NCBI GenBank assembly: GCA_947561715.1
Contig: OX387202.1
Location: forward strand, 15,141,001-15,205,000
DNA from: Ascidia mentula
Taxonomy: Eukaryota > Chordata > Ascidiacea > Phlebobranchia > Ascidiidae
Length of the DNA stretch: 64,000 nucleotides
Direction of reading: 5' to 3'
How positions within the stretch are numbered: the stretch's first letter is position 1; each line of letters begins with the position of its first letter. Below the pieces are notes generated by a model, which was given only the letters and a program-made list of their open reading frames with translations, was not told where the DNA came from and made no database searches. Shown here in pieces: positions 3,244-32,600 of this stretch. The position numbers and the translations under genes are program-made.

Positions 3244-5060
3244 CTACGTCTCAATATTCCATTTTGCATACATGTCATATATGATTGTAATCACTCCTTC
3301 CATTTCACTGCTGTACAATAAACCCTGTCTTTCAACTTCTTCTTCAATCAATTGTTCCCAGTTTCGATTTCCAGATGTCTTTACCTGTTCCAATGAATCT
3401 GGCATGATCATACTTGTCTTAAAGTCCTCAAAGGGGGGCAACATCATAAGGCTTGCCCTGAAAAAAGGCAATTGTGTGAATTATTTTCCACACAAATAGC
3501 ATTTTTAATTTCCTTCTATTCATAACTTAATAGCACAAAGGATAGTTGCACAAACTATCATATTTCTGTTGTGGCTGAAAATGCCTCTTTTGAAACTGAT
3601 TACCCTGTAGCATAATGTAAATGTACTTATAGTCTTTACATAATGTACCAGTATTTAAAGGCCACATTCTCAATCATGGACAGTACACTAAACAAAAAGT
3701 TAAAAATATTATTTTTTGCAATAAGCAACAATGTTTCAGATCTTTTTCATGTATTTATTTACAATTACCTTATACTTAAACTAGCAATAAAATAAAAATG
3801 CTTCCTACTTGAAGAATTTCCGTACTACCCAGCTATGATGCATGGATAAAAACTTTTCATATGAATTGACTAGTGAGGTGACTGTATCATGCTTGGAGTC
3901 ACTGCCATCGCTGAGTAAATTTTTCAGAAACTGGCTGATAACCCTCAGTCCACGTGTCATCCACAGGAGTGCCTGCGTCCCTGTGTCTGGACCAGTGTGT
4001 TGATTGGCTGCTATTTCAGTATTTAAAATGTCCTGGCAAAAAAACACTTTGTTTTTTCTTTTATACATGTGTCTTTTGTTACAATTTTAGCCATACCATA
4101 GATAAATTTCAAAGCATTTAACTAGTGTCCAAATTTCCTTCTATTTATGGATATCAATATGGCTTATTTGCTTCTTAAGGCATGAATTTTAGAAGCAGTT
4201 GAGCCATAATGATCAGTGAGCTGATCAGCGTGTCATCACTGATAAGACCTGATAGGTAAAAACAGTGTGTACTGGATGATGCCTAAACCGCTAACAACAC
4301 TTACCTGCAAGTATTTGTATTCAGGATTACTTTGCAGGACTCTTTGTATCTTGTCTATATTACCAAGTATGTCGGAATTGAGTGGGGATAAAAGCTTGCC
4401 ACCGAATCCCTCTAAAACTGTTGTATAACACTGACAAGCTTCGAGAAAAACATCAATTGGAATAAGACTGACACTGTCACGATCAACAAATCCTGCAATA
4501 ACATCCCCAAAGTCGGTTTCACAGGTAGTAAATAAGGTTCCTACATGATTTGCTTGTATGTTTTGTTCCAAAATTTTAACACTTCTATGTGGAGACTTGT
4601 CATGTTGTACTTTCTGAATCTGAAAAACATGAAAGTGAAAAGTGGTCTGGTATAAATTGAGAAAGCTATGAAATATCACAAGACTGTAAAATTAAGTATT
4701 ATTCAAAATTCAGTATGTTGCTGTCAAAATCCAGTATTTTACATGCTAAAAAGTATGGAATGGTGGCATAAATATGGCCCAATTTGCCAAGGGCTAATCA
4801 TGAATAAATTGCGGTGACTATAAGCAAATATTAACGACCAGACGCTACAAAATAAACAAATATATTGTCGTTCTTACCTGATCAACCCTGGATGTGACGT
4901 TTTCAGCATGCCTACTGTGCGTGCGGACATTCTCTTCCACAAAGCAGAACAGTGCAAAAAGTAGCACAAAGCTCATGAATTGTATTACTTTCCGTCTTGA
5001 GAAATTAATACTCGACAAATTAGCGCGAAAACGACCCCAAACGGGCCAAAAAGCAACCAT
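3244..5060 (-). CDS. Membrane-anchored GLTP-domain lipid transfer protein (GLTPD2-like)
   Basis: Four exons are modelled: 4878-5060, 4305-4619, 3809-4032 and 3244-3457. All phases close, giving 311 aa. Residues about 25-41 (VIQFMSFVLLFALFCFV) form one membrane segment or signal anchor just after a basic stretch. The rest is a glycolipid-transfer-protein fold: LFTTCETDFGDV, then SDILGNIDKIQRVL (the Asp/Asn/Lys lipid headgroup motif), LLWMTRGLRVISQFL (Trp plus two Arg) and MHHSWVVRKFF (the conserved His). The two Arg in the TRGLR segment resemble ceramide-1-phosphate-type members (CPTP, GLTPD2) rather than classical GLTP. That substrate call is an inference. Exons 3 and 4 have exactly the same lengths (224 and 214 bp) as in PLEKHA8 at 26.0-29.0 kb, so the two genes are tandem duplicates with different N-terminal exons. 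The start codon is 42 bp from the left end of the giant foldback element. Confidence 0.85.
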
Positions 5061-5094: not shown

Positions 5095-5102
5095 AGATTC
5101 GA
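5095..5102. repeat. Left 8-bp target-site duplication of the giant element
   Basis: AGATTCGA stands directly before the left terminus and is repeated exactly at 25305-25312, directly after the right terminus. Confidence 0.85.
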
Positions 5103-5335
5103 ACCACCCTCATTCTGGCAGAATTCTGGCAGAATAATTTTGCAAATTAGCCACATTTTAAAAGGTACAACAGGCATTTACTCAAAAATTGGTTTCTTTT
5201 GGATTAGAATCAAATCACAGAGATGAGCAAGCAGTTCAAACCTCAAAAAACATTTAAACAAATTTTTTCGCAGCTGTATCAATCAAAAAAATCGCGAATT
5301 AAAAAAATCGCCTGGTTTTGCGATTCAGCATAATG
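5103..5335 (+). repeat. Left outer terminal inverted repeat (unique part)
   Basis: About 233 bp are inverted at 25068-25304 with roughly eight mismatches, mostly in the first 80 bp. The tip carries a short direct repeat (attctggcaga twice). The inner part contains an A-run/CG pattern (aaaaaaatcgcg) and runs smoothly into a diverged first 205-bp unit, showing that the array grew from sequence belonging to the end itself. Confidence 0.85.
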
Positions 5336-8300
5336 GCGGCATGCAAAAAACTTCCCTAATACAAAGAATTCTGCTCGGCGTTCTTGCAATAGGTGCCAAT
5401 ATTGACCAATATCACGAGAACGGAAATTTAATGCTCTACCACATGCAATTAACAAATTTGAAATTAAGGTGCCGGATGACCTTCAAATCGCCCATCGAAG
5501 ACGACCCGCTTTTTGCGAATCAGCAGCATAATGGCGTAATGTCGGCATGCGAAAAACTTCCCTATTAAAACAATTCTTCTCGGCGTTCTTGCAATAGGTG
5601 CCAATATTGAACAACATCACGAGAACGGAAATTTAATGCTCTACCACATGCAATTAACAAATTTGAAATTAAGGTGCCGGATGACCTTCAAATCGCCCAT
5701 CGAATAAGACCCGCTTTTTGCGAATCAGCAGCATAATGGCGTAATGTCGGCATGCGAAAAACTTCCCTATTAAAACAATTCTGCTCGGCGTTCTTGCAAT
5801 AGGTGCCAATATTGAACAACATCACGAGAACGGAAATTTAATGCTCTACCACATGCAATTAACAAATTTGAAATTAAGGTGCCGGATGACCTTCAAATCG
5901 CCCATCGAAGACGACCCGCTTTTTGCGAATCAGCAGCATAATGGCGTAATGTCGGCATGCGAAAAACTTCCCTATTAAAACAATTCTGCTCGGCGTTCTT
6001 GCAATAGGTGCCAATATTGACCAACATCACGAGAACGGAAATTTAATGCTCTGCCACATGCAATTAACAAATTTGAAATTAAGGTGCCGGATGACCTTCA
6101 AATCGCCCATCGAATAAGACCCGCTTTTTGCGAATCAGCAGCATAATGGCGTAATGTCGGCATGCGAAAAACTTCCCTATTAAAACAATTCTGCTCGGCG
6201 TTCTTGCAATAGGTGCCAATATTGACCAATATCACGAGAACGGAAATTTAATGCTCTACCACATGCAATTAACAAATTTGAAATTAAGGTGCCGGATGAC
6301 CTTCAAATCGCTCATCGAAGACGACCCGCTTTTTGCGAATCAGCAGCATAATGGCGTAATGTCGGCATGCGAAAAACTTCCCTATTAAAACAATTCTGCT
6401 CGGCGTTCTTGCAATAGGTGCCAATATTGACCAACATCACGAGAACGGAAATTTAATGCTCTACCACATGCAATTAACAAATTTGAAATTAAGGTGCCGG
6501 ATGACCTTCAAATCGCCCATCGAATAAGACCCGCTTTTTGCGAATCAGCAGCATAATGGCGTAATGTCGGCATGCGAAAAACTTCCCTATTAAAACAATT
6601 CTGCTCGGCGTTCTTGCAATAGGTGCCAATATTGACTAACATCTCGAGAACGGAAATTTAATGCTCTACAACATGCAATTAACAAATTTGAAATTAAGAT
6701 GCCGGATGACCTTCAAATCGCCCATCAAAAAAGACCCGCTTTTTGCGAATCAGCAGCATAATGGCGTAATGTCGGCATGCGAAAAACTTCCCTATTAAAA
6801 CAATTCTGCTCGGCGTTCTTGCAATAGGTGCCAATATTGACCAATATCACGAGAACGGAAATTTAATGCTCTACCACATGCAATTAACAAATTTGAAATT
6901 AAGGTGCCGGATGACCTTCAAATCGCCCATCGAAAAAGACCCGCTTTTTGCGAATCAGCAGCATTATGGCGTAATGTCGGCATGCGAAAAACTTCCCTAT
7001 TAAAACAATTCTGCTCGGCGTTCTTGCAATAGGTGCCAATATTAACCAACATCACGAGAACGGAAATTTAATGCTCTACCACATGCAATTAACAAATTTG
7101 AAATTAAGGTGCCGGATGACCTTCAAATCGCCCATCGAATAAGACCCGCTTTTTGCGAATCAGCAGCATAATGGCGTAATGTCGGCATGCGAAAAACTTC
7201 CCTATTAAAACAATTCTGCTCGGCGTTCTTGCAATAGGTGCCAATATTGACTAACATCTCGAGAACGGAAATTTAATGCTCTACAACATGCAATTAACAA
7301 ATTTGAAATTAAGATGCCGGATGACCTTCAAATCGCCCATCAAAAAAGACCCGCTTTTTGCGAATCAGCAGCATAATGGCGTAATGTCGGCATGCGAAAA
7401 ACTTCCCTATTAAAACAATTCTGCTCGGCGTTCTTGCAATAGGTGCCAATATTGACCAACATCACGAGAACGGAAATTTAATGCTCTACCACATGCAATT
7501 AACAAATTTGAAATTAAGGTGCCGGATGACCTTCAAATCGCCCATCGAATAAGACCCGCTTTTTGCGAATCAGCAGCATAATGGCGTAATGTCGGCATGC
7601 GAAAAACTTCCCTATTAAAACAATTCTGCTCGGCGTTCTTGCAATAGGTGCCAATATTGACCAACATCACGAGAACGGAAATTTAATGCTCTACCACATG
7701 CAATTAACAAATTTGAAATTAAGGTGCCGGATGACCTTCAAATCGCCCATCGAATAAGACCCGCTTTTTGCGAATCAGCAGCATAATGGCGTAATGTCGG
7801 CATGCGAAAAACTTCCCTATTAAAACAATTCTGCTCGGCGTTCTTGCAATAGGTGCCAATATTGACTAACATCTCGAGAACGGAAATTTAATGCTCTACA
7901 ACATGCAATTAACAAATTTGAAATTAAGATGCCGGATGACCTTCAAATCGCCCATCAAAAAAGACCCGCTTTTTGCGAATCAGCAGCATAATGGCGTAAT
8001 GTCGGCATGCGAAAAACTTCCCTATTAAAACAATTCTGCTCGGCGTTCTTGCAATAGGTGCCAATATTGACCAATATCACGAGAACGGAAATTTAATGCT
8101 CTACCACATGCAATTAACAAATTTGAAATTAAGGTGCCGGATGACCTTCAAATCGCCCATCGAAAAAGACCCGCTTTTTGCGAATCAGCAGCATTATGGC
8201 GTAATGTCGGCATGCGAAAAACTTCCCTATTAAAACAATTCTGCTCGGCGTTCTTGCAATAGGTGCCAATATTAACCAACATCACGAGAACGGAAATTTA

Positions 8301-11147
8301 ATGCTCTACCACATGCAATTAACAAATTTGAAATTAAGGTGCCGGATGACCTTCAAATCGCCCATCGAATAAGACCCGCTTTTTGCGAATCAGCAGCATA
8401 ATGGCGTAATGTCGGCATGCGAAAAACTTCCCTATTAAAACAATTCTGCTCGGCGTTCTTGCAATAGGTGCCAATATTGACTAACATCTCGAGAACGGAA
8501 ATTTAATGCTCTACAACATGCAATTAACAAATTTGAAATTAAGATGCCGGATGACCTTCAAATCGCCCATCAAAAAAGACCCGCTTTTTGCGAATCAGCA
8601 GCATAATGGCGTAATGTCGGCATGCGAAAAACTTCCCTATTAAAACAATTCTGCTCGGCGTTCTTGCAATAGGTGCCAATATTGACCAACATCACGAGAA
8701 CGGAAATTTAATGCTCTACCACATGCAATTAACAAATTTGAAATTAAGGTGCCGGATGACCTTCAAATCGCCCATCGAATAAGACCCGCTTTTTGCGAAT
8801 CAGCAGCATAATGGCGTAATGTCGGCATGCGAAAAACTTCCCTATTAAAACAATTCTGCTCGGCGTTCTTGCAATAGGTGCCAATATTGACTAACATCTC
8901 GAGAACGGAAATTTAATGCTCTACAACATGCAATTAACAAATTTGAAATTAAGGTGCCGGATGACCTTCAAATCGCCCATCAAAAAAGACCCGCTTTTTG
9001 CGAATCAGCAGCATAATGGCGTAATGTCGGCATGCGAAAAACTTCCCTATTAAAACAATTCTGCTCGGCGTTCTTGCAATAGGTGCCAATATTGACCAAT
9101 ATCACGAGAACGGAAATTTAATGCTCTACCACATGCAATTAACAAATTTGAAATTAAGGTGCCGGATGACCTTCAAATCGCCCATCGAAAAAGACCCGCT
9201 TTTTGCGAATCAGCAGCATTATGGCGTAATGTCGGCATGCGAAAAACTTCCCTATTAAAACAATTCTGCTCGGCGTTCTTGCAATAGGTGCCAATATTAA
9301 CCAACATCACGAGAACGGAAATTTAATGCTCTACCACATGCAATTAACAAATTTGAAATTAAGGTGCCGGATGACCTTCAAATCGCCCATCGAATAAGAC
9401 CCGCTTTTTGCGAATCAGCAGCATAATGGCGTAATGTCGGCATGCGAAAAACTTCCCTATTAAAACAATTCTGCTCGGCGTTCTTGCAATAGGTGCCAAT
9501 ATTGACTAACATCTCGAGAACGGAAATTTAATGCTCTACAACATGCAATTAACAAATTTGAAATTAAGGTGCCGGATGACCTTCAAATCGCCCATCAAAA
9601 AAGACCCGCTTTTTGCGAATCAGCAGCATAATGGCGTAATGTCGGCATGCGAAAAACTTCCCTATTAAAACAATTCTGCTCGGCGTTCTTGCAATAGGTG
9701 CCAATATTGACCAATATCACGAGAACGGAAATTTAATGCTCTACCACATGCAATTAACAAATTTGAAATTAAGGTGCCGGATGACCTTCAAATCGCCCAT
9801 CGAAAAAGACCCGCTTTTTGCGAATCAGCAGCATTATGGCGTAATGTCGGCATGCGAAAAACTTCCCTATTAAAACAATTCTGCTCGGCGTTCTTGCAAT
9901 AGGTGCCAATATTAACCAACATCACGAGAACGGAAATTTAATGCTCTACCACATGCAATTAACAAATTTGAAATTAAGGTGCCGGATGACCTTCAAATCG
10001 CCCATCGAATAAGACCCGCTTTTTGCGAATCAGCAGCATAATGGCGTAATGTCGGCATGCGAAAAACTTCCCTATTAAAACAATTCTGCTCGGCGTTCTT
10101 GCAATAGGTGCCAATATTGACTAACATCTCGAGAACGGAAATTTAATGCTCTACAACATGCAATTAACAAATTTGAAATTGAGATGCCGGATGACCTTCA
10201 AATCGCCCATCAAAAAAGACCCGCTTTTTGCGAATCAGCAGCATAATGGCGTAATGTCGGCATGCGAAAAACTTCCCTATTAAAACAATTCTGCTCGGCG
10301 TTCTTGCAATAGGTGCCAATATTGACCAATATCACGAGAACGGAAATTTAATGCTCTACCACATGCAATTAACAAATTTGAAATTAAGGTGCCGGATGAC
10401 CTTCAAATCGCCCATCGAAAAAGACCCGCTTTTTGCGAATCAGCAGCATTATGGCGTAATGTCGGCATGCGAAAAACTTCCCTATTAAAACAATTCTGCT
10501 CGGCGTTCTTGCAATAGGTGCCAATATTGACCAACATCACGAGAACGGAAATTTAATGCTCTACCACATGCAATTAACAAATTTGAAATTAAGGTGCCGG
10601 ATGACCTTCAAATCGCCCATCGAAGACGACCCGCTTTTTGCGAATCAGCAGCATAATGGCGTAATGTCGGCATGCGAAAAACTTCCCTATTAAAACAATT
10701 CTGCTCGGCGTTCTTGCAATAGGTGCCAATATTGACCAATATCACGAGAACGGAAATTTAATGCTCTACCACATGCAATTAACAAATTTGAAATTAAGGT
10801 GCCGGATGATCTTCAAATCGCCCATCGAATAAGACCCGCTTTTTGCGAATCAGCAGCATAATGGCGTAATGTCGGCATGCGAAAAACTTCCCTATTAAAA
10901 CAATTCTGCTCGGCGTTCTTGCAATAGGTGCCAATATTGACCAATATCACGAGAACGGAAATTTAATGCTCTACCACATGCAATTAACAAATTTGAAATT
11001 AAGGTGCCGGATGACCTTCAAATCGCCCATCGAAGACGACCCGCTATTTGCGAATCAGCAGCATAATGGCGTAATGTCGGCATGCGAAAAACTTCCCTAT
11101 TAAAACAATTCTGCTCGGCGTTCTTGCAATAGGTGCCAATATTGACC
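5336..11147 (+). repeat. Left array: about 28 tandem copies of a 205-bp unit
   Basis: The landmark GTCGGCATGC recurs exactly every 205 bp from 5541 to 11076. Units share blocks such as CTGCTCGGCGTTCTTGCAAT and AATGTCGGCATGCG. Variants mark unit types: actaacatctcgag with catcaaaaaag; accaatatcacgag with gcattatggc; attaaccaacatcacg with catcgaataag. These three follow one another repeatedly from about 6.6 to 10.5 kb, giving a 615-bp higher-order repeat, while both flanks of the array are less regular. Reading frames exist in single units but are not kept across variants. Confidence 0.95.
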
Positions 11148-12299
11148 AAATTTGACCATATTGACCAATAAGCCTTCTAAATTTATAACTTTGGCAGTAT
11201 GCAAGTACAACATGTGTTCAATCATGTACATTTGCACATATCAGCAAACTTGGCAATAATACACAACTTTATTTGTAAAAAATTGTATTTGTTGACTTCC
11301 GGGGCCGGGCCACGTAGCAGCCTTCGACATGCTACAAAATGTTGATTTGCGGACTGCAGTTTGTACACCCTTGGTGTAAACAAATACAAAACATTTTTGC
11401 TATATGTTTAGATGATGGATTGCTTTCCACATTTCTTTTTCATGTGCTCTTTGGATAAAATGGCAACAAATTTTAGAGATATGTGTCATATATAACGCTA
11501 AATACTATTTTTTCCAATACACACAAACATATGTATTTACTGTTTATCCTGTGACATGTGTTACATAATTGATTTCTGTGACAAAATACTGTAAAAAAAA
11601 TATGCTCTATTTTCTGTGCAGGTCGTACTCAGTTCGAAAAAAAGGAAAAGTTGAATTGTGATGGTTACTTTTGAGGGAAAAGAAAATTGAAAATGTAGTG
11701 TAGTTCATACTACACCTGACAAATTCCTGCAAATATGTCATTGGTAGGGGAGTCAGGAGATAAATTTTCATGTTAGGTACCACGAATCCATACGAGTTGA
11801 TAAACCCTTCGGTATCTGAGATCAAATCCTAATAGAATGCAACAGTACAGTCAAACGATAACGCGTGAAATATGTCCACATCAAAGTCATTGCGTCATAA
11901 GGGACAAACAGAAAGAAAGGCAATCTTCGACCAAAACGAATTTCAATGCCAGGACCAAACTTTATTTTATCAAAATAGGACTAAAGACCGCATATCAGTA
12001 ATTCTATTAAAATAGTTTTGCCCGCGGGGAATGCCCGTCTTGTACTCCTGCGTCATAGAGAGTCTCAGTTTCGTCACTGAGACTCTCTATGGTGATGCAT
12101 TGGGGTCAATTTTCTGTTTTAATGAGCAAGAAGTCACGTGGTGTAGCCAGGGCGATTTTCAGCGTGTTTGGTGCAGTTTTAGTGCATTTTTTTGCTCTTC
12201 TCAGTCAGTCAGACGTTTGGTGCAGGGTGCTGTGAAAAGTTTAGTTGAAAAACCATCAAAATGTTCAAGGGGATGAAGCACAAAATTGAATCTTTTATT
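11148..12299. other. Non-repetitive core of the giant element
   Basis: About 1,150 bp separate the two opposed arrays. The core includes a GC-rich patch (ccggggccgggccacg near 11300) inside AT-rich sequence, a perfect 15-bp hairpin at 12054-12091, and only short reading frames (72 and 81 codons) without recognisable domains. I see no transposase motif. It could be captured host sequence or the remains of an older internal element. Confidence 0.7.
12054..12091. repeat. Perfect 15-bp stem hairpin in the element core
   Basis: CATAGAGAGTCTCAG (12054-12068) is followed by an 8-base loop (tttcgtca) and its exact inverse CTGAGACTCTCTATG (12077-12091). It lies 208 bp before the inner edge of the right array. 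It may be the tip of a small palindromic insertion or a structured RNA element. Function unknown. Confidence 0.8.
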
Positions 12300-15200
12300 G
12301 GCACCTATTGCAAGAACGCCGAGCAGAATTGTTTTAATAGGGAAGTTTTTCGCATGCCGACATTACGCCATTATGCTGCTGATTCGCAAAAAGCGGGTCT
12401 TATTCGATGGGCGATTTGAAGGTCATCCGGCACCTTAATTTCAAATTTGTTAATTGCATGTTGTAGAGCATTAAATTTCCGTTTTCGTGATATTGGTCAC
12501 TATGGGCACCTATTGCAAGAACGCCGAGCAGAATTGTTTTAATAGGGAAGTTTTTCGCATGCCGACATTACGCCATTATGCTGCTGATTCGCAAAAAGCG
12601 GGTCTTATTCGATGGGCGATTTGAAGGTCATCCGGCACCTTAATTTCAAATTTGTTAATTGCATGTTGTAGAGCATTAAATTTCCGTTCTCGTGATATTG
12701 GTCAATATGGGCACCTATTGCAAGAACGCCGAGCAGAATTGTTTTAATAGGGAAGTTTTTCGCATGCCGACATTACGCCATTATGCTGCTGATTCGCAAA
12801 AAGCGGGTCTTATTCGATGGGCGATTTGAAGGTCATCCGGCACCTTAATTTCAAATTTGTTAATTGCATGTTGTAGAGCATTAAATTTCCGTTTTCGTGA
12901 TATTGGTCACTATGGGCACCTATTGCAAGAACGCCGAGCAGAATTGTTTTAATAGGGAAGTTTTTCGCATGCCGACATTACGCCATTATGCTGCTGATTC
13001 GCAAAAAGCGGGTCTTATTCGATGGGCGATTTGAAGGTCATCCGGCACCTTAATTTCAAATTTGTTAATTGCATGTTGTAGAGCATTAAATTTCCGTTCT
13101 CGTGATATTGGTCAATATGGGCACCTATTGCAAGAACGCCGAGCAGAATTGTTTTAATAGGGAAGTTTTTCGCATGCCGACATTACGCCATTATGCTGCT
13201 GATTCGCAAAAAGCGGGTCTTATTCGATGGGCGATTTGAAGGTCATCCGGCACCTTAATTTCAAATTTGTTAATTGCATGTTGTAGAGCATTAAATTTCC
13301 GTTTTCGTGATATTGGTCACTATGGGCACCTATTGCAAGAACGCCGAGCAGAATTGTTTTAATAGGGAAGTTTTTCGCATGCCGACATTACGCCATTATG
13401 CTGCTGATTCGCAAAAAGCGGGTCTTATTCGATGGGCGATTTGAAGGTCATCCGGCACCTTAATTTCAAATTTGTTAATTGCATGTTGTAGAGCATTAAA
13501 TTTCCGTTCTCGTGATATTGGTCAATATGGGCACCTATTGCAAGAACGCCGAGCAGAATTGTTTTAATAGGGAAGTTTTTCGCATGCCGACATTACGCCA
13601 TTATGCTGCTGATTCGCAAAAAGCGGGTCTTATTCGATGGGCGATTTGAAGGTCATCCGGCACCTTAATTTCAAATTTGTTAATTGCATGTTGTAGAGCA
13701 TTAAATTTCCGTTTTCGTGATATTGGTCACTATGGGCACCTATTGCAAGAACGCCGAGCAGAATTGTTTTAATAGGGAAGTTTTTCGCATGCCGACATTA
13801 CGCCATTATGCTGCTGATTCGCAAAAAGCGGGTCTTATTCGATGGGCGATTTGAAGGTCATCCGGCACCTTAATTTCAAATTTGTTAATTGCATGTTGTA
13901 GAGCATTAAATTTCCGTTCTCGTGATATTGGTCAATATGGGCACCTATTGCAAGAACGCCGAGCAGAATTGTTTTAATAGGGAAGTTTTTCGCATGCCGA
14001 CATTACGCCATTATGCTGCTGATTCGCAAAAAGCGGGTCTTATTCGATGGGCGATTTGAAGGTCATCCGGCACCTTAATTTCAAATTTGTTAATTGCATG
14101 TTGTAGAGCATTAAATTTCCGTTTTCGTGATATTGGTCACTATGGGCACCTATTGCAAGAACGCCGAGCAGAATTGTTTTAATAGGGAAGTTTTTCGCAT
14201 GCCGACATTACGCCATTATGCTGCTGATTCGCAAAAAGCGGGTCTTATTCGATGGGCGATTTGAAGGTCATCCGGCACCTTAATTTCAAATTTGTTAATT
14301 GCATGTTGTAGAGCATTAAATTTCCGTTCTCGTGATATTGGTCAATATGGGCACCTATTGCAAGAACGCCGAGCAGAATTGTTTTAATAGGGAAGTTTTT
14401 CGCATGCCGACATTACGCCATTATGCTGCTGATTCGCAAAAAGCGGGTCTTATTCGATGGGCGATTTGAAGGTCATCCGGCACCTTAATTTCAAATTTGT
14501 TAATTGCATGTTGTAGAGCATTAAATTTCCGTTTTCGTGATATTGGTCACTATGGGCACCTATTGCAAGAACGCCGAGCAGAATTGTTTTAATAGGGAAG
14601 TTTTTCGCATGCCGACATTACGCCATTATGCTGCTGATTCGCAAAAAGCGGGTCTTATTCGATGGGCGATTTGAAGGTCATCCGGCACCTTAATTTCAAA
14701 TTTGTTAATTGCATGTTGTAGAGCATTAAATTTCCGTTCTCGTGATATTGGTCAATATGGGCACCTATTGCAAGAACGCCGAGCAGAATTGTTTTAATAG
14801 GGAAGTTTTTCGCATGCCGACATTACGCCATTATGCTGCTGATTCGCAAAAAGCGGGTCTTATTCGATGGGCGATTTGAAGGTCATCCGGCACCTTAATT
14901 TCAAATTTGTTAATTGCATGTTGTAGAGCATTAAATTTCCGTTTTCGTGATATTGGTCACTATGGGCACCTATTGCAAGAACGCCGAGCAGAATTGTTTT
15001 AATAGGGAAGTTTTTCGCATGCCGACATTACGCCATTATGCTGCTGATTCGCAAAAAGCGGGTCTTATTCGATGGGCGATTTGAAGGTCATCCGGCACCT
15101 TAATTTCAAATTTGTTAATTGCATGTTGTAGAGCATTAAATTTCCGTTCTCGTGATATTGGTCAATATGGGCACCTATTGCAAGAACGCCGAGCAGAATT

Positions 15201-18200
15201 GTTTTAATAGGGAAGTTTTTCGCATGCCGACATTACGCCATTATGCTGCTGATTCGCAAAAAGCGGGTCTTATTCGATGGGCGATTTGAAGGTCATCCGG
15301 CACCTTAATTTCAAATTTGTTAATTGCATGTTGTAGAGCATTAAATTTCCGTTTTCGTGATATTGGTCACTATGGGCACCTATTGCAAGAACGCCGAGCA
15401 GAATTGTTTTAATAGGGAAGTTTTTCGCATGCCGACATTACGCCATTATGCTGCTGATTCGCAAAAAGCGGGTCTTATTCGATGGGCGATTTGAAGGTCA
15501 TCCGGCACCTTAATTTCAAATTTGTTAATTGCATGTTGTAGAGCATTAAATTTCCGTTCTCGTGATATTGGTCAATATGGGCACCTATTGCAAGAACGCC
15601 GAGCAGAATTGTTTTAATAGGGAAGTTTTTCGCATGCCGACATTACGCCATTATGCTGCTGATTCGCAAAAAGCGGGTCTTATTCGATGGGCGATTTGAA
15701 GGTCATCCGGCACCTTAATTTCAAATTTGTTAATTGCATGTTGTAGAGCATTAAATTTCCGTTTTCGTGATATTGGTCACTATGGGCACCTATTGCAAGA
15801 ACGCCGAGCAGAATTGTTTTAATAGGGAAGTTTTTCGCATGCCGACATTACGCCATTATGCTGCTGATTCGCAAAAAGCGGGTCTTATTCGATGGGCGAT
15901 TTGAAGGTCATCCGGCACCTTAATTTCAAATTTGTTAATTGCATGTTGTAGAGCATTAAATTTCCGTTCTCGTGATATTGGTCAATATGGGCACCTATTG
16001 CAAGAACGCCGAGCAGAATTGTTTTAATAGGGAAGTTTTTCGCATGCCGACATTACGCCATTATGCTGCTGATTCGCAAAAAGCGGGTCTTATTCGATGG
16101 GCGATTTGAAGGTCATCCGGCACCTTAATTTCAAATTTGTTAATTGCATGTTGTAGAGCATTAAATTTCCGTTTTCGTGATATTGGTCACTATGGGCACC
16201 TATTGCAAGAACGCCGAGCAGAATTGTTTTAATAGGGAAGTTTTTCGCATGCCGACATTACGCCATTATGCTGCTGATTCGCAAAAAGCGGGTCTTATTC
16301 GATGGGCGATTTGAAGGTCATCCGGCACCTTAATTTCAAATTTGTTAATTGCATGTTGTAGAGCATTAAATTTCCGTTCTCGTGATATTGGTCAATATGG
16401 GCACCTATTGCAAGAACGCCGAGCAGAATTGTTTTAATAGGGAAGTTTTTCGCATGCCGACATTACGCCATTATGCTGCTGATTCGCAAAAAGCGGGTCT
16501 TATTCGATGGGCGATTTGAAGGTCATCCGGCACCTTAATTTCAAATTTGTTAATTGCATGTTGTAGAGCATTAAATTTCCGTTTTCGTGATATTGGTCAC
16601 TATGGGCACCTATTGCAAGAACGCCGAGCAGAATTGTTTTAATAGGGAAGTTTTTCGCATGCCGACATTACGCCATTATGCTGCTGATTCGCAAAAAGCG
16701 GGTCTTATTCGATGGGCGATTTGAAGGTCATCCGGCACCTTAATTTCAAATTTGTTAATTGCATGTTGTAGAGCATTAAATTTCCGTTCTCGTGATATTG
16801 GTCAATATGGGCACCTATTGCAAGAACGCCGAGCAGAATTGTTTTAATAGGGAAGTTTTTCGCATGCCGACATTACGCCATTATGCTGCTGATTCGCAAA
16901 AAGCGGGTCTTATTCGATGGGCGATTTGAAGGTCATCCGGCACCTTAATTTCAAATTTGTTAATTGCATGTTGTAGAGCATTAAATTTCCGTTTTCGTGA
17001 TATTGGTCACTATGGGCACCTATTGCAAGAACGCCGAGCAGAATTGTTTTAATAGGGAAGTTTTTCGCATGCCGACATTACGCCATTATGCTGCTGATTC
17101 GCAAAAAGCGGGTCTTATTCGATGGGCGATTTGAAGGTCATCCGGCACCTTAATTTCAAATTTGTTAATTGCATGTTGTAGAGCATTAAATTTCCGTTCT
17201 CGTGATATTGGTCAATATGGGCACCTATTGCAAGAACGCCGAGCAGAATTGTTTTAATAGGGAAGTTTTTCGCATGCCGACATTACGCCATTATGCTGCT
17301 GATTCGCAAAAAGCGGGTCTTATTCGATGGGCGATTTGAAGGTCATCCGGCACCTTAATTTCAAATTTGTTAATTGCATGTTGTAGAGCATTAAATTTCC
17401 GTTTTCGTGATATTGGTCACTATGGGCACCTATTGCAAGAACGCCGAGCAGAATTGTTTTAATAGGGAAGTTTTTCGCATGCCGACATTACGCCATTATG
17501 CTGCTGATTCGCAAAAAGCGGGTCTTATTCGATGGGCGATTTGAAGGTCATCCGGCACCTTAATTTCAAATTTGTTAATTGCATGTTGTAGAGCATTAAA
17601 TTTCCGTTCTCGTGATATTGGTCAATATGGGCACCTATTGCAAGAACGCCGAGCAGAATTGTTTTAATAGGGAAGTTTTTCGCATGCCGACATTACGCCA
17701 TTATGCTGCTGATTCGCAAAAAGCGGGTCTTATTCGATGGGCGATTTGAAGGTCATCCGGCACCTTAATTTCAAATTTGTTAATTGCATGTTGTAGAGCA
17801 TTAAATTTCCGTTTTCGTGATATTGGTCACTATGGGCACCTATTGCAAGAACGCCGAGCAGAATTGTTTTAATAGGGAAGTTTTTCGCATGCCGACATTA
17901 CGCCATTATGCTGCTGATTCGCAAAAAGCGGGTCTTATTCGATGGGCGATTTGAAGGTCATCCGGCACCTTAATTTCAAATTTGTTAATTGCATGTTGTA
18001 GAGCATTAAATTTCCGTTCTCGTGATATTGGTCAATATGGGCACCTATTGCAAGAACGCCGAGCAGAATTGTTTTAATAGGGAAGTTTTTCGCATGCCGA
18101 CATTACGCCATTATGCTGCTGATTCGCAAAAAGCGGGTCTTATTCGATGGGCGATTTGAAGGTCATCCGGCACCTTAATTTCAAATTTGTTAATTGCATG

Positions 18201-21200
18201 TTGTAGAGCATTAAATTTCCGTTTTCGTGATATTGGTCACTATGGGCACCTATTGCAAGAACGCCGAGCAGAATTGTTTTAATAGGGAAGTTTTTCGCAT
18301 GCCGACATTACGCCATTATGCTGCTGATTCGCAAAAAGCGGGTCTTATTCGATGGGCGATTTGAAGGTCATCCGGCACCTTAATTTCAAATTTGTTAATT
18401 GCATGTTGTAGAGCATTAAATTTCCGTTCTCGTGATATTGGTCAATATGGGCACCTATTGCAAGAACGCCGAGCAGAATTGTTTTAATAGGGAAGTTTTT
18501 CGCATGCCGACATTACGCCATTATGCTGCTGATTCGCAAAAAGCGGGTCTTATTCGATGGGCGATTTGAAGGTCATCCGGCACCTTAATTTCAAATTTGT
18601 TAATTGCATGTTGTAGAGCATTAAATTTCCGTTTTCGTGATATTGGTCACTATGGGCACCTATTGCAAGAACGCCGAGCAGAATTGTTTTAATAGGGAAG
18701 TTTTTCGCATGCCGACATTACGCCATTATGCTGCTGATTCGCAAAAAGCGGGTCTTATTCGATGGGCGATTTGAAGGTCATCCGGCACCTTAATTTCAAA
18801 TTTGTTAATTGCATGTTGTAGAGCATTAAATTTCCGTTCTCGTGATATTGGTCAATATGGGCACCTATTGCAAGAACGCCGAGCAGAATTGTTTTAATAG
18901 GGAAGTTTTTCGCATGCCGACATTACGCCATTATGCTGCTGATTCGCAAAAAGCGGGTCTTATTCGATGGGCGATTTGAAGGTCATCCGGCACCTTAATT
19001 TCAAATTTGTTAATTGCATGTTGTAGAGCATTAAATTTCCGTTTTCGTGATATTGGTCACTATGGGCACCTATTGCAAGAACGCCGAGCAGAATTGTTTT
19101 AATAGGGAAGTTTTTCGCATGCCGACATTACGCCATTATGCTGCTGATTCGCAAAAAGCGGGTCTTATTCGATGGGCGATTTGAAGGTCATCCGGCACCT
19201 TAATTTCAAATTTGTTAATTGCATGTTGTAGAGCATTAAATTTCCGTTCTCGTGATATTGGTCAATATGGGCACCTATTGCAAGAACGCCGAGCAGAATT
19301 GTTTTAATAGGGAAGTTTTTCGCATGCCGACATTACGCCATTATGCTGCTGATTCGCAAAAAGCGGGTCTTATTCGATGGGCGATTTGAAGGTCATCCGG
19401 CACCTTAATTTCAAATTTGTTAATTGCATGTTGTAGAGCATTAAATTTCCGTTCTCGTGATATTGGTCAATATGGGCACCTATTGCAAGAACGCCGAGCA
19501 GAATTGTTTTAATAGGGAAGTTTTTCGCATGCCGACATTACGCCATTATGCTGCTGATTCGCAAAAAGCGGGTCTTATTCGATGGGCGATTTGAAGGTCA
19601 TCCGGCACCTTAATTTCAAATTTGTTAATTGCATGTTGTAGAGCATTAAATTTCCGTTTTCGTGATATTGGTCACTATGGGCACCTATTGCAAGAACGCC
19701 GAGCAGAATTGTTTTAATAGGGAAGTTTTTCGCATGCCGACATTACGCCATTATGCTGCTGATTCGCAAAAAGCGGGTCTTATTCGATGGGCGATTTGAA
19801 GGTCATCCGGCACCTTAATTTCAAATTTGTTAATTGCATGTTGTAGAGCATTAAATTTCCGTTCTCGTGATATTGGTCAATATGGGCACCTATTGCAAGA
19901 ACGCCGAGCAGAATTGTTTTAATAGGGAAGTTTTTCGCATGCCGACATTACGCCATTATGCTGCTGATTCGCAAAAAGCGGGTCTTATTCGATGGGCGAT
20001 TTGAAGGTCATCCGGCACCTTAATTTCAAATTTGTTAATTGCATGTTGTAGAGCATTAAATTTCCGTTTTCGTGATATTGGTCACTATGGGCACCTATTG
20101 CAAGAACGCCGAGCAGAATTGTTTTAATAGGGAAGTTTTTCGCATGCCGACATTACGCCATTATGCTGCTGATTCGCAAAAAGCGGGTCTTATTCGATGG
20201 GCGATTTGAAGGTCATCCGGCACCTTAATTTCAAATTTGTTAATTGCATGTTGTAGAGCATTAAATTTCCGTTCTCGTGATATTGGTCAATATGGGCACC
20301 TATTGCAAGAACGCCGAGCAGAATTGTTTTAATAGGGAAGTTTTTCGCATGCCGACATTACGCCATTATGCTGCTGATTCGCAAAAAGCGGGTCTTATTC
20401 GATGGGCGATTTGAAGGTCATCCGGCACCTTAATTTCAAATTTGTTAATTGCATGTTGTAGAGCATTAAATTTCCGTTTTCGTGATATTGGTCACTATGG
20501 GCACCTATTGCAAGAACGCCGAGCAGAATTGTTTTAATAGGGAAGTTTTTCGCATGCCGACATTACGCCATTATGCTGCTGATTCGCAAAAAGCGGGTCT
20601 TATTCGATGGGCGATTTGAAGGTCATCCGGCACCTTAATTTCAAATTTGTTAATTGCATGTTGTAGAGCATTAAATTTCCGTTCTCGTGATATTGGTCAA
20701 TATGGGCACCTATTGCAAGAACGCCGAGCAGAATTGTTTTAATAGGGAAGTTTTTCGCATGCCGACATTACGCCATTATGCTGCTGATTCGCAAAAAGCG
20801 GGTCTTATTCGATGGGCGATTTGAAGGTCATCCGGCACCTTAATTTCAAATTTGTTAATTGCATGTTGTAGAGCATTAAATTTCCGTTTTCGTGATATTG
20901 GTCACTATGGGCACCTATTGCAAGAACGCCGAGCAGAATTGTTTTAATAGGGAAGTTTTTCGCATGCCGACATTACGCCATTATGCTGCTGATTCGCAAA
21001 AAGCGGGTCTTATTCGATGGGCGATTTGAAGGTCATCCGGCACCTTAATTTCAAATTTGTTAATTGCATGTTGTAGAGCATTAAATTTCCGTTCTCGTGA
21101 TATTGGTCAATATGGGCACCTATTGCAAGAACGCCGAGCAGAATTGTTTTAATAGGGAAGTTTTTCGCATGCCGACATTACGCCATTATGCTGCTGATTC

Positions 21201-24200
21201 GCAAAAAGCGGGTCTTATTCGATGGGCGATTTGAAGGTCATCCGGCACCTTAATTTCAAATTTGTTAATTGCATGTTGTAGAGCATTAAATTTCCGTTTT
21301 CGTGATATTGGTCACTATGGGCACCTATTGCAAGAACGCCGAGCAGAATTGTTTTAATAGGGAAGTTTTTCGCATGCCGACATTACGCCATTATGCTGCT
21401 GATTCGCAAAAAGCGGGTCTTATTCGATGGGCGATTTGAAGGTCATCCGGCACCTTAATTTCAAATTTGTTAATTGCATGTTGTAGAGCATTAAATTTCC
21501 GTTCTCGTGATATTGGTCAATATGGGCACCTATTGCAAGAACGCCGAGCAGAATTGTTTTAATAGGGAAGTTTTTCGCATGCCGACATTACGCCATTATG
21601 CTGCTGATTCGCAAAAAGCGGGTCTTATTCGATGGGCGATTTGAAGGTCATCCGGCACCTTAATTTCAAATTTGTTAATTGCATGTTGTAGAGCATTAAA
21701 TTTCCGTTTTCGTGATATTGGTCACTATGGGCACCTATTGCAAGAACGCCGAGCAGAATTGTTTTAATAGGGAAGTTTTTCGCATGCCGACATTACGCCA
21801 TTATGCTGCTGATTCGCAAAAAGCGGGTCTTATTCGATGGGCGATTTGAAGGTCATCCGGCACCTTAATTTCAAATTTGTTAATTGCATGTTGTAGAGCA
21901 TTAAATTTCCGTTCTCGTGATATTGGTCAATATGGGCACCTATTGCAAGAACGCCGAGCAGAATTGTTTTAATAGGGAAGTTTTTCGCATGCCGACATTA
22001 CGCCATTATGCTGCTGATTCGCAAAAAGCGGGTCTTATTCGATGGGCGATTTGAAGGTCATCCGGCACCTTAATTTCAAATTTGTTAATTGCATGTTGTA
22101 GAGCATTAAATTTCCGTTCTCGTGATATTGGTCAATATGGGCACCTATTGCAAGAACGCCGAGCAGAATTGTTTTAATAGGGAAGTTTTTCGCATGCCGA
22201 CATTACGCCATTATGCTGCTGATTCGCAAAAAGCGGGTCTTATTCGATGGGCGATTTGAAGGTCATCCGGCACCTTAATTTCAAATTTGTTAATTGCATG
22301 TTGTAGAGCATTAAATTTCCGTTCTCGTGATATTGGTCAATATGGGCACCTATTGCAAGAACGCCGAGCAGAATTGTTTTAATAGGGAAGTTTTTCGCAT
22401 GCCGACATTACGCCATTATGCTGCTGATTCGCAAAAAGCGGGTCTTATTCGATGGGCGATTTGAAGGTCATCCGGCACCTTAATTTCAAATTTGTTAATT
22501 GCATGTTGTAGAGCATTAAATTTCCGTTTTCGTGATATTGGTCACTATGGGCACCTATTGCAAGAACGCCGAGCAGAATTGTTTTAATAGGGAAGTTTTT
22601 CGCATGCCGACATTACGCCATTATGCTGCTGATTCGCAAAAAGCGGGTCTTATTCGATGGGCGATTTGAAGGTCATCCGGCACCTTAATTTCAAATTTGT
22701 TAATTGCATGTTGTAGAGCATTAAATTTCCGTTCTCGTGATATTGGTCAATATGGGCACCTATTGCAAGAACGCCGAGCAGAATTGTTTTAATAGGGAAG
22801 TTTTTCGCATGCCGACATTACGCCATTATGCTGCTGATTCGCAAAAAGCGGGTCTTATTCGATGGGCGATTTGAAGGTCATCCGGCACCTTAATTTCAAA
22901 TTTGTTAATTGCATGTTGTAGAGCATTAAATTTCCGTTTTCGTGATATTGGTCACTATGGGCACCTATTGCAAGAACGCCGAGCAGAATTGTTTTAATAG
23001 GGAAGTTTTTCGCATGCCGACATTACGCCATTATGCTGCTGATTCGCAAAAAGCGGGTCTTATTCGATGGGCGATTTGAAGGTCATCCGGCACCTTAATT
23101 TCAAATTTGTTAATTGCATGTTGTAGAGCATTAAATTTCCGTTCTCGTGATATTGGTCAATATGGGCACCTATTGCAAGAACGCCGAGCAGAATTGTTTT
23201 AATAGGGAAGTTTTTCGCATGCCGACATTACGCCATTATGCTGCTGATTCGCAAAAAGCGGGTCTTATTCGATGGGCGATTTGAAGGTCATCCGGCACCT
23301 TAATTTCAAATTTGTTAATTGCATGTTGTAGAGCATTAAATTTCCGTTTTCGTGATATTGGTCACTATGGGCACCTATTGCAAGAACGCCGAGCAGAATT
23401 GTTTTAATAGGGAAGTTTTTCGCATGCCGACATTACGCCATTATGCTGCTGATTCGCAAAAAGCGGGTCTTATTCGATGGGCGATTTGAAGGTCATCCGG
23501 CACCTTAATTTCAAATTTGTTAATTGCATGTTGTAGAGCATTAAATTTCCGTTCTCGTGATATTGGTCAATATGGGCACCTATTGCAAGAACGCCGAGCA
23601 GAATTGTTTTAATAGGGAAGTTTTTCGCATGCCGACATTACGCCATTATGCTGCTGATTCGCAAAAAGCGGGTCTTATTCGATGGGCGATTTGAAGGTCA
23701 TCCGGCACCTTAATTTCAAATTTGTTAATTGCATGTTGTAGAGCATTAAATTTCCGTTTTCGTGATATTGGTCACTATGGGCACCTATTGCAAGAACGCC
23801 GAGCAGAATTGTTTTAATAGGGAAGTTTTTCGCATGCCGACATTACGCCATTATGCTGCTGATTCGCAAAAAGCGGGTCTTATTCGATGGGCGATTTGAA
23901 GGTCATCCGGCACCTTAATTTCAAATTTGTTAATTGCATGTTGTAGAGCATTAAATTTCCGTTCTCGTGATATTGGTCAATATGGGCACCTATTGCAAGA
24001 ACGCCGAGCAGAATTGTTTTAATAGGGAAGTTTTTCGCATGCCGACATTACGCCATTATGCTGCTGATTCGCAAAAAGCGGGTCTTATTCGATGGGCGAT
24101 TTGAAGGTCATCCGGCACCTTAATTTCAAATTTGTTAATTGCATGTTGTAGAGCATTAAATTTCCGTTCTCGTGATATTGGTCAATATGGGCACCTATTG

Positions 24201-25067
24201 CAAGAACGCCGAGCAGAATTGTTTTAATAGGGAAGTTTTTCGCATGCCGACATTACGCCATTATGCTGCTGATTCGCAAAAAGCGGGTCTTATTCGATGG
24301 GCGATTTGAAGGTCATCCGGCACCTTAATTTCAAATTTGTTAATTGCATGTTGTAGAGCATTAAATTTCCGTTTTCGTGATATTGGTCACTATGGGCACC
24401 TATTGCAAGAACGCCGAGCAGAATTGTTTTAATAGGGAAGTTTTTCGCATGCCGACATTACGCCATTATGCTGCTGATTCGCAAAAAGCGGGTCTTATTC
24501 GATGGGCGATTTGAAGGTCATCCGGCACCTTAATTTCAAATTTGTTAATTGCATGTTGTAGAGCATTAAATTTCCGTTCTCGTGATATTGGTCAATATGG
24601 GCACCTATTGCAAGAACGCCGAGCAGAATTGTTTTAATAGGGAAGTTTTTCGCATGCCGACATTACGCCATTATGCTGCTGATTCGCAAAAAGCGGGTCT
24701 TATTCGATGGGCGATTTGAAGGTCATCCGGCACCTTAATTTCAAATTTGTTAATTGCATGTTGTAGAGCATTAAATTTCCGTTCTCGTGATATTGGTCAA
24801 TATGGGCACCTATTGCAAGAACGCCGAGCAGAATTGTTTTAATAGGGAAGTTTTTCGCATGCCGACATTACGCCATTATGCTGCTGATTCGCAAAAAGCG
24901 GGTCTTATTCGATGGGCGATTTGAAGGTCATCCGGCACCTTAATTTCAAATTTGTTAATTGCATGTTGTAGAGCAATTAATTTCCGTTCTCGTGATATTG
25001 GTCAATATGGGCACCTATTGCAAGAACGCCGAGCAGATTTCTTTGTATTAGACTAGTTTTTCGCATG
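12300..25067 (-). repeat. Right array: about 62 inverted copies of the 205-bp unit, mostly as 410-bp dimers
   Basis: This array is the reverse complement of the left unit, with GCATGCC landmarks from 12352 to 25063 (62 periods of 205 bp plus one base). It is far more uniform than the left array. Almost all units belong to two types that differ at two sites, gttttcg with gtcac versus gttctcg with gtcaa, and these alternate strictly over most of the length. The alternation slips near 19.3-19.5, 21.9-22.3, 24.0-24.2 and 24.6-25.0 kb, where second-type units occur in runs. The last unit is diverged and merges into the outer terminal repeat, mirroring the left end. Confidence 0.95.
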
Positions 25068-25304
25068 CCGCCATTATGCTGAATCGCAAAACCAGGCGAT
25101 TTTTTTAATTCGCGATTTTTTTGATTGATACAGCTGCGAAAAAATTTGTTTAAATATTTTTTGAGGTTTGAACTGCTTGCTCATCTCTGTAATTTGATTC
25201 TAATCCAAAAGAAACCAATTTTTGAGTAAATGCTTGTTGTGCCTTGCAAAATGTGGCAAATTTGAAAAATTATTCTGCCAGAATTCTGCCAGAATGAGGG
25301 TGGT
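25068..25304 (-). repeat. Right outer terminal inverted repeat (unique part)
   Basis: This is the inverse of 5103-5335. The terminal inverse reads ACCACCCTCATTCTGG, and the same A-run/CG block (as cgcgatttttttgat) is present near the array edge. Confidence 0.85.
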
Positions 25305-25312
25305 AGATTCGA
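25305..25312. repeat. Right 8-bp target-site duplication
   Basis: AGATTCGA is identical to 5095-5102. Confidence 0.85.
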
Positions 25313-29631: not shown

Positions 29632-32600
29632 ATGGTGTTTATGTGTCAAGCTGACAGTTACCTAAAGCACTTTAAAACTACGGTTGTTGCATGTCAACCT
29701 GCAGAATGCAAAATTGAAAATGAAAACGGAAAGCTTCAAAAAGCGAAAGGGTATAAAATTTATCTGGTTGACGTCACGACGTGTTTGGAAATATTATGAA
29801 TACCTTTTTTAGTATTTCGAGAGAATTAATGAGAAAACAAATGAATCAATAGTTACTGATCATGAGGTTTTCAGGCTTGGCAGCCTAGCTGGATTTTTCA
29901 AATCTCGCTCCGACTTGTCAGGAAAAAGTGGCTGATCCAGCTAGCCTGCATTGCCTGGGCTGCCAAGCCCGAAAACCTCATGATCATGATACGTTAGCTG
30001 TGATCGCCAAGCAAGGACCCGCGCAGTAGGGCGATCCTGCCTATCATACCATTGCATGTAATATTACTGTGTCAATAGTTACTGTTAAGGTTTTTTTGTA
30101 ATTATCTTCTTGAAATTGCCATTTTGTATTCATTGTTTGCTTTGTGACTGCTGTTGGAGTCTGTTGAAGTTTGTTTTGCTAAATGTTTTTACTCATAATG
30201 TTTAGGTACAATGTTGAACTGGAAGACACAATCCTGTTTCCAGAGGGAGGGGGTCAACCAGATGACAGAGGCAGAATCAATGACCATGAAGTAAAGAGAG
30301 TCATTAGAAAAGCCGACAAGGTGTGATAAGGCAGAATGTGTTTCTAAAAGCAAATTGATATCGTGAAACTTCAAATACTCCACATATTCCACTTTTGCAT
30401 ATCACCCGTTTGCTTCCATATAACAAGATAACTACAATTATCGAAATTTTTTGCAACTGTGCACCCCAGGTTTTTCCAACAAGCTGTTATCCTACTGTGA
30501 TAATGTGTATTTAAAAACACTATGTAAGCGAAAACCGATTTTCTGCATAAATCTGTGGATATAAACTAGTGGCTTGTTGCTTCATAAGATACGCCCATTG
30601 TAGTAATTTGCTTCATAAGATATGCCCATTGTAGTAATTTGCTTCATAAGATATGCCCATTGTAGTAATTTTGCACTGTAGTGCCTGTTGGAGTCAATTT
30701 GTGGCTCTTATCTTTTTCTTCAGGCACTACATTTTGTCGAGAAAGAAATAGACATTGGACAGGTTGTTGAACTGGATGTAGATTGGGGTAGAAGGTTTGA
30801 TCATATGCAGCAACACAGGTAAAATAATGCTCTTGAAAAGAATCAATGTGACAATTATTTGATTTTTGTTTTACTGCCATTGTAGCTCACAGCACCTAAT
30901 TACAGCAATAGCTGATGAGAATTACGGATATAAAACAACATCCTGGGACTTGGGAAAAAACATCTCTTTTATTGAACTTGACACCGCAACTGTGACTGAT
31001 GTGCAGATAAAAAATGTTGAGAGGTTTGTGTTGCAGAAATGTTTTCAACAATGTTAAAGAATGAAAAAGCCATGAATAGTTAAATTCTACAGGTTTAAAT
31101 TATTGGATGTATTTTTACTTGGCTTTTACTATTTAAATTTTCCTCACAAACAATTCATAGTTGTTTATGATTCTGTTTTTTAAGCAAGTGCTTTTTTTGT
31201 TTGTGTCCATATGAAAGGGCAGTTATGGCCAGACTTTTGCCTGTAGTTTATGGTCAAGATCCTTCAGATCAAATGCTGGAATATGTTTATATGTAATGTT
31301 TTTTCTTGGTTGACAGACTTGCTAATGAGGCTATACAAGCAAGTACCCCAGTGGTGGTTCATGTAACACAGGTGGGGTCACCTTTGCTTGAAACAGTTAG
31401 AACAAGAGGACTTCCCGAAGACCATGTTGGTGATGTCAGGTAGGTTTCTACCTAAATAAATGTATAGATGTGCCTTTGACTATGCCTTTCATGAGCTACA
31501 AACGAACCAAAATTTAGGGATATATCTTGTTATCTTTGACCAGACCAGAAGTGTAAAGTAAAGTTGGCAAAACTCCACTACCCAAACAATAACTTTAATA
31601 ACAGCTTACGCAAAGAGATGTGACTTACAGATTGCTTTATTATAACTTAACAAAAAAGAGGTGAAGTTTATTGAACCCCAGGTGCTTTGTAGAATAGTGG
31701 AAATGAAAGGAATTGAGGCCAACATGTGTTGTGGGACACATGTTTCCAACTTGTCACATCTCCAGTGCATAAAGCTGTTGGCAGCAGAAAAGGGGAAAAA
31801 GGGAAGAACCAACTTGTTCTTTCTGGCTGGAAATCGTGTTTTGTCGTATGCGGGAAAGTGTTATAACACAGAGAAGGACCTCACCAAGCAATTAAAGGTT
31901 GAGCATTTAAAGAATCCTATCTAAGAACGTTTTTTCAGTTAAAGTTTATCAATATTTTTTTGTGAACAGACCAGCAGTAATTGCTCTTTTCTGGTATTCA
32001 GCTTTCCATATAATTTGCTGGTAACTTAAAGTTGTTGTTTCACTTTGTAGTGTGGTCCAGATCAACACTCTGTCGCTGTAGAGAGATCTCTGAAGCAGCT
32101 AAAAACAATGCAGAAAAACTGCACAAATTTGCTAAGAGATCTGGCTGTACTGGAAGCTGGTCTGTTCAAAAACACAGGGGAGAGGTGGATAGTTTGAAAT
32201 ATGGTTGATCAGGTTTTACTGCTAACAAAAAAAGTAACACACTAACTTTGCGATTTCAGTTTTCTGTCGCTGCATAGAAAGGAGGGCACTGTTGAGTTCA
32301 TGAACATTATCTCCAACGAACTTCCAGACAATGTGAGTAAACGTTATTATCCTGTTTAATTTCATTTTCTGATTTGATGTCTGGTAAAGATCTAATCCCA
32401 ACACTAAAGGTTAGACATAATATACCCTATAAAACTGTGTCACATGCTTAGTAAAATGCAATCCTAAAGTCTTTAGATTTTATACAGTTTTCTTGAACAA
32501 TAGTATATATTTTTGTGATCATATTTCACCAATGAATTGGCAAGAATTTCTTGTGAATATTGGTATATTCCTATTTTAGTTGCATCAATTCATTTGTTTA

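Follow-up and report, generated by a model that had tools for sequence, protein, structure and literature searches.

Does the 20-kb segment with inverted ends and two opposed tandem arrays in a stretch of DNA from the ascidian Ascidia mentula represent a foldback transposon built of satellite DNA, and has such a transposon become, or seeded, a satellite? The stretch analyzed here, referred to as the window, comprises 64,000 nucleotides and is taken as part of chromosome 6 (21.17 Mb) of this species. In this work the segment was compared with related sequences throughout the genome, and we report that it is very probably a full copy of an apparently non-autonomous foldback family of A. mentula, delimited by terminal inverted repeats (TIRs), in which the arms change in bursts and are sometimes copied.

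The element occupies positions 5103-25304 of the window (20,202 bp), corresponding to C70:15146103-15166304 of the genome, and has inverted ends inside an 8-bp duplication, AGATTCGA, which occurs exactly twice in the window. Its terminus, ACCACCCTCATTCTGG, is present as a single copy per strand, at 5103 (+) and at 25289-25304 (-). All parts listed in the original prediction were found again, namely the 8-bp duplications, the inverted ends with about eight mismatches, the opposed arrays of a 205-bp unit and the 1.15-kb core (Table 1).

The genome searched comprises 195.8 Mb in 79 contigs, nine of which are chromosome-scale. The published kaAscMent1.1 assembly is given as 197.0 Mb in 95 scaffolds with nine chromosomes in the part of its description used here (PMC11109543), and a small part of it is missing from the sequence searched. 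The 16-bp terminus was found 57 times in forward and 60 times in reverse orientation, while its reversed control was found in neither (0 + 0). At least 41 genome matches to the 235-bp end were detected at 95-100% identity, the window copy included (40 of 165 candidates were scored), and at least 20 matches, again including the window, cover 1145 or more of the 1147 bp of core A, the core type of the window, at 93-100% (40 of 843 candidates were scored). Combining the terminus matches (100 places listed), the search with the 235-bp end and one diverged end in a fetched locus, 50 convergent pairs were compiled; these measure 1,086-26,407 bp (median 5.7 kb, total 381 kb) and are spread over all nine chromosome-scale contigs. 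Duplications were surveyed in both flanks of 48 of these pairs, two pairs on contig C73 being left out. Exact duplications of 8 bp were present in 36 pairs and of 9 bp in four (one within a GT repeat); one more pair showed 8 bp with one mismatch and another 8 bp with one extra base, so that 42 of the 48 pairs have an 8- or 9-bp duplication, counting the imperfect cases. When left and right flanks of the 48 pairs were cross-combined, 8-bp agreement was seen in one of 2256 combinations, and this one represented two elements in the same dispersed repeat. A chance origin is excluded by this cross-combination together with the counts of the 16-mer and its control.

Inverted arms with internal tandem repeats around a middle domain, dispersed insertions with duplications and a variable arm length are the structural features of foldback elements, and all of them are found here. 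This is a real foldback DNA transposon family, apparently non-autonomous, and what had been predicted for a mobile family was borne out: the element in the window is a bounded insertion, and many dispersed copies exist with varied array lengths and 8-bp duplications of their own. Pooling of strands showed a weak target preference near GAAWWTTC. Two insertions on contig C2, at 2473159 (duplication GAAAATCG) and 2918988 (duplication TGAAAATC), have both hit copies of a roughly 770-bp dispersed repeat, at sites one base apart, and the uninterrupted target with a single copy of the site is preserved in the window core and at C70:3645400-3647600, which thus represent related empty sites. A third C2 element is located in the same repeat without a clean duplication. 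This dispersed repeat (L120 928-1694, L121 607-1372 and L122 614-1380; the three copies are 96.6-96.9% alike) supplied part of core A, also stands alone, and has been the target of at least three insertions of the family.

Upon analysis of the 15 copies examined in full, i.e., the copies on contig C1 and that of the window, the arms were found to range from under one to 63 units and were often unequal. The largest arms, as measured by coordinates alone, reach 16.0 kb (C2:2918988). Two main cores were recognized, core A and a core B of about 2 kb, and 47 of the 50 pairs contain A, B or parts thereof, as judged from the loci examined and from match coordinates. The three exceptions are C1:8015222, with just 20 bp between the arms, C1:14579434, with the frame of a nested long terminal repeat (LTR) retrotransposon between the arms, and C2:2513146, the interior of which was outside the core survey. 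The longest compiled pair (C69:11163300-11189706, 26.4 kb) is a composite of core A plus a core B within one arm. Core B is also seen as an inverted duplicate, as if snapped back, at C52:3328168-3330736 (3328168/3329660), C71:4003554-4005869 (4003554/4004874) and C67:9959334-9960659. A core-B diverged relative, L104, carries a reverse transcriptase remnant (Pfam), and core B thus includes debris that we read as being of long interspersed nuclear element (LINE) type; two frames searched against Pfam, one from a core B and one from an arm, gave no match. In the diverged and presumably older relatives L029 and L102, each arm is limited to roughly one unit or a fragment of a unit, and L104 has about 1.5 (the arm at C72:10850500 is cut off by the edge of the fetched stretch). 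Given these diverged relatives with short arms, the long arms look derived, though little-diverged copies such as C70:9434010 can have short arms too. A 5.5-kb convergent pair of old-type ends, C52:16647748 (+) and C52:16653213 (-), with 83% and 79% identity to the L102 end, is a candidate older or autonomous relative. Derivation of the array from the outer end was considered and rejected, unit and end sharing just a short junction, and the same applies to secondary structure of the unit, which as single-stranded DNA folds no better than shuffled sequences.

The dynamics of the arrays were addressed by comparing 444 full units cut from the 15 copies. The right arm of the window is composed of two unit types in ABAB order: 55 of 60 neighbors differ, a number reached by none of 100,000 shuffles, and once the outermost junction unit is set aside, the 61 units show no further variant. 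The left arm shows a within-arm divergence of 2.3%, its 28 full units representing 14 distinct sequences. The core of the window differs by 7 substitutions in 1146 positions from that of C72:19519839 and by 8 in 1132 from that of C1:26808228, and around these near-identical cores the arms hold 28 and 62 units in the window, about 10 and 11 in the C72 sister (by coordinates), and 11 and 43 in the C1 sister. If the 12.5-kb array of the window dated from the split of these copies, the window lineage should have gathered about 38-44 private changes, and none is seen. The dimer burst therefore looks much younger than the split from the sister copies, unless turnover keeps erasing variants. AB alternation is absent in the arm of the C1 sister, and the six units beside the C72 core differ from those of the window by 2, 0, 2, 0, 4, and 1, which fits a non-AB arrangement. 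Similarly homogeneous arms made of other variants are present in C1:13353096 (50 units, three distinct sequences) and C1:26799116 (43 units, five distinct sequences). A different history would be that the long arrays were inherited intact, one source having grown long arms once and lengths differing only by later deletion. Consistent with this, the right arm of the window and the left arm of C1:26799116 have an identical consensus (mean divergence 0.7%), and a single consensus describes the arms of both C1:7522109 and C1:6914427, with those of C1:8015222 deviating from it at 1-2 positions. The three largest near-identical arrays nevertheless differ privately, by the AB dimer in the window, a scattered 33T in C1:26799116 and a scattered 104C, on another consensus, in C1:13353096; these differences, and the absence of the private changes due at the age of the split, make intact inheritance unlikely.

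In several copies the arms have thus changed length by bursts that multiply one monomer or one dimer, with the outermost unit and the end staying distinct. Unlike the inner units, the outermost one has 1A and 7G in each of the 13 arms listed, and growth therefore seems internal to the element ends. Unequal exchange within the array, or rolling-circle or break-induced replication there, may be the source of such bursts.

In some copies one arm mirrors the other. C1:19981852-19990588 has no mismatch between its arms over 228 + 16 x 205 bp (3.5 kb), the eight outermost unit types of one arm recurring as a mirror image in the other and the inner units numbering 8 and 10, and its arms are closer to each other than to the arm of any other element compared, the nearest of which differ by 1.9-2.1%. 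In C1:10480890 the two ends are identical, whereas the arms show 1-4 mismatches in each of the six outermost units and 8-13 in each of the following six. Template switching on the foldback, or conversion between the inverted arms, could bring about this type of copying, perhaps when the site of an excision or a collapsed replication fork is repaired. A bias between arms was analyzed in the 26 core-A copies for which both ends and a long match to the core were available, omitting copies with a partial core A or an unknown end (C1:2679037, C1:12280257, C1:26853805, C67:10987940, C69:17360815, C71:19857113, C72:4144321, C72:6944711, and C73:6210530). The arm 3' of core A is the longer one in 18 of 26 copies (p = 0.08) and in seven of the eight of at least 10 kb (p = 0.07), with a Wilcoxon p = 0.04. 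The large exception is the composite C69:11163300, which has core B inside its longer arm; without it the values are 18/25 (p = 0.04), 7/7 (p = 0.016) and p = 0.017. Since the copies are related and several tests were made, we regard preferential growth on the 3' side of core A as no more than suggestive.

As to the proposal that the transposon became or seeded a satellite, an 18-mer of the unit occurs 1362 times exactly in the genome (control 0). The C1 copies and the window account for 438 of these occurrences, at 0.96 per unit, and the remaining 924 are equivalent to about 965 units (198 kb). Together, the 35 pairs outside this set total 258.6 kb, which after subtraction of the ends and of cores of 1.0-2.1 kb leaves 169-208 kb of array, and all 18-mer places among the 100 listed (C1, up to 8.0 Mb) fall inside known elements. 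The count is thus accounted for by the elements, and no free-standing satellite was found by counting the 18-mer in the assembly, a count that covers neither diverged arrays nor unassembled DNA; large arrays independent of a mobile element, as satellite DNA in the strict sense would have, are not seen by this measure. The proposal is thus half right: within the element the arrays show satellite-like amplification, and no independent satellite was seen by this count. The elements look like movable satellite DNA. It might be argued instead that a pre-existing independent satellite was captured by the transposon and merely carried along, given that unit and outer end share almost nothing beyond the short junction. 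Such a capture is quite improbable, as the 924 18-mers fit the capacity of the other 35 pairs and the diverged L029, L102, and L104 have the short arms described above; this latter argument is weakened by the finding of short arms also in copies with little-diverged ends and cores, e.g., C70:9434010 and C69:16946560.

Several observations weigh against a foldback family with bursts and copying of arms. Six of the 48 pairs lack a matching duplication, C67:4380590 among them agreeing at 6/8 positions; a search for reciprocal exchange among these six gave no convincing partner, the sole exact match joining two elements in one dispersed repeat. The arms of the window differ by 2.9%, the right one having its nearest counterpart, at 0.7%, in the arm on the corresponding side of the C1 sister and the left one lying about equally far (2.5-2.6%) from several arms. 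Arm copying is thus not general and, considering the mirror arms of other copies, is episodic. Across 21 arms, within-arm divergence falls only weakly with unit number (Spearman -0.32, p = 0.16). Array growth is timed only against the split of the sister copies and not against the insertion in the window, and ongoing turnover could erase private variants. No transposase was found within the pairs, so that mobilization in trans is a matter of inference. Finally, near-identical dimers are difficult for assemblers when they extend over 12.8 kb, and the array was assessed from the assembly and not from reads, which leads to the suspicion that these dimers, like the mirror arms, arose as artefacts of assembly. 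This is highly improbable: the assembly derives from 74-fold HiFi data with a quality value (QV) of 64.9, according to the part of its description used (PMC11109543), the mirror arms of C1:19981852 are unequal in unit number and have an asymmetric core between them and an 8-bp duplication around them, and many other arms are not homogeneous.

The foldback family would be moved by a transposase acting in trans on its ends. Pfam searches of the genome gave 49 matches to MULE, 21 to P-type RNase H, 50 to Merlin (IS1595), 6 to KDZ, and 39 to hAT transposases, and none of these matches lies inside the 50 pairs or inside three older-looking pairs. One P-type match is located 2.6 kb outside the pair C67:10845298. 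The Mutator superfamily is the usual home of foldback elements; at the four MULE, three Merlin and two KDZ loci examined, no ends resembling those of the family were present. Merlin was rejected as superfamily: the ends of the family are ACC...GGT and lack the terminal GG that goes with 8-9-bp duplications according to the part of the Merlin literature used (PMC8101967), while the duplication length does fit. A P-superfamily element at C72:10858642-10862797 (L123, L124), with TIR CACTGATCTCTATA, an 8-bp duplication TGTTATTC and a THAP-like frame, is nested in a BEL/Pao-like retroelement (the THAP and BEL/Pao labels are a reading of the frames). An old core-B relative is located about 6 kb away from this P element, which was rejected as a source of the family because it has its own, unrelated ends. 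Merlin-type transposase matches also occur as divergent minus/plus pairs 1.6-2.8 kb apart (C67:901883/904707, C69:20459405/20461437, C70:13360173/13362619, C72:6932638/6935084, and C1:15138481/15140127), which suggests another family with a large inverted duplication. At C69:12465382-12487404 there are four MULE matches in a row on one strand, 6-8 kb apart, perhaps a tandem array of one element or gene.

FB of Drosophila and TU of sea urchin have short units and target duplications of about 8-9 bp. These two elements, and Tm1, resemble the A. mentula family in having composite inverted ends of variable length with internal tandem repeats; Tm1, of root-knot nematodes, is described with a motif of about 14 bp and 9-bp duplications in the part of the source used (PMC3169594). 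The statement in the original prediction that known foldback elements have much shorter units does not stand, as units of about 210 bp are present in Galileo F of Drosophila mojavensis (PMC3573991) and of about 220 bp in Tetris of Drosophila virilis (PMC4079207); the comparisons that follow refer to the parts of these two accounts that were used. Galileo F shares with our family long inverted ends, direct tandem repeats of about 210 bp that vary between arms, and chimeric copies, and differs in having two or three repeats per arm, P-superfamily membership, 7-bp duplications and known transposase sequences (PMC3573991), whereas the A. mentula family has 8- or 9-bp duplications and no P-type match inside a pair. 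Tetris is closer. It is a non-autonomous foldback element with a flanking domain and internal tandem repeats of about 220 bp in its inverted arms, a variable noncoding middle, 8-10-bp duplications, no transposase found and repeats amplified to dozens; its units have produced satellite arrays that reach 66 copies, and it is presented as the first foldback element generating a satellite (PMC4079207). Unlike our family, it is described with just three structurally complete copies and TIRs of up to 1,735 bp, and its long arrays are described as satellite-like, possibly disrupting the element (PMC4079207), whereas A. mentula arrays of that size remain in bounded elements. No description of the present family was found in the ascidian or tunicate foldback and satellite literature or in that on A. 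mentula, among titles and abstract openings of the best matches listed. What is new is that bounded elements have arms tens of units long, together with the record of amplification and arm copying; foldback elements with units of about 210-220 bp were already known.

Table 1. Parts of the foldback element in the window (window coordinates).
Feature	Position	Strand	Remarks
Left target site duplication AGATTCGA	5095-5102		identical to 25305-25312
Left outer end, TIR, 228 bp, starts ACCACCCTCATTCTGG	5103-5330	+	8 mismatches vs right end
Left arm, 28.4 tandem copies of the 205-bp unit	5331-11149	+	97% match, period 205
Core, type A	11150-12295	+	1.15 kb, no coding function recognized; core A lies outside the domain scans run
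Core part derived from the dispersed ~770-bp repeat	11985-12292	+	genome matches
Right arm, inverted array of the 205-bp unit (62.3 copies), alternating AB dimer	12296-25076	-	99% match, period 205
Outermost (junction) unit of right arm	24872-25076	-	variants, 1A and 7G included, that recur in the outermost unit of each of the 13 arms listed
Right outer end, TIR, 228 bp	25077-25304	-	8 mismatches vs left end
Right target site duplication AGATTCGA	25305-25312		identical to 5095-5102

On either side of the element, at window positions 4236-4688 and 26889-27515, a minus-strand frame matches the glycolipid transfer protein family; the two frames probably represent exons of genes arranged in tandem. 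Elsewhere in the window, at 30577-30671, there is a short tandem repeat (31 bp x 3.1 copies), and an Rfam scan of the window gave no match. In the 19,461-bp mitochondrial contig, COX1 needs the ascidian mitochondrial code, with AGR read as Gly; the AGR sites of this COX1 are presumably conserved Gly positions.

With its dozens of dispersed and bounded copies, whose arms hold between less than one unit and 63 in those examined in full, the family offers a graded series of array expansion in a chordate. The sister copies, in which very different arrays surround cores that are nearly identical, allow the question of how a few units become dozens to be tested, and the perfectly mirrored copy does the same for the way in which foldback arms stay symmetrical. 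We tentatively put forward, as an idea that is at present rather doubtful, that the element is a self-contained mobile satellite, in which bursts occur only between the transposon ends and favor the 3' arm of core A, while the mirror is actively rebuilt by arm copying. If this were true, transposons would be the birthplace and keeper of satellite arrays and not just a source of fragments for them.

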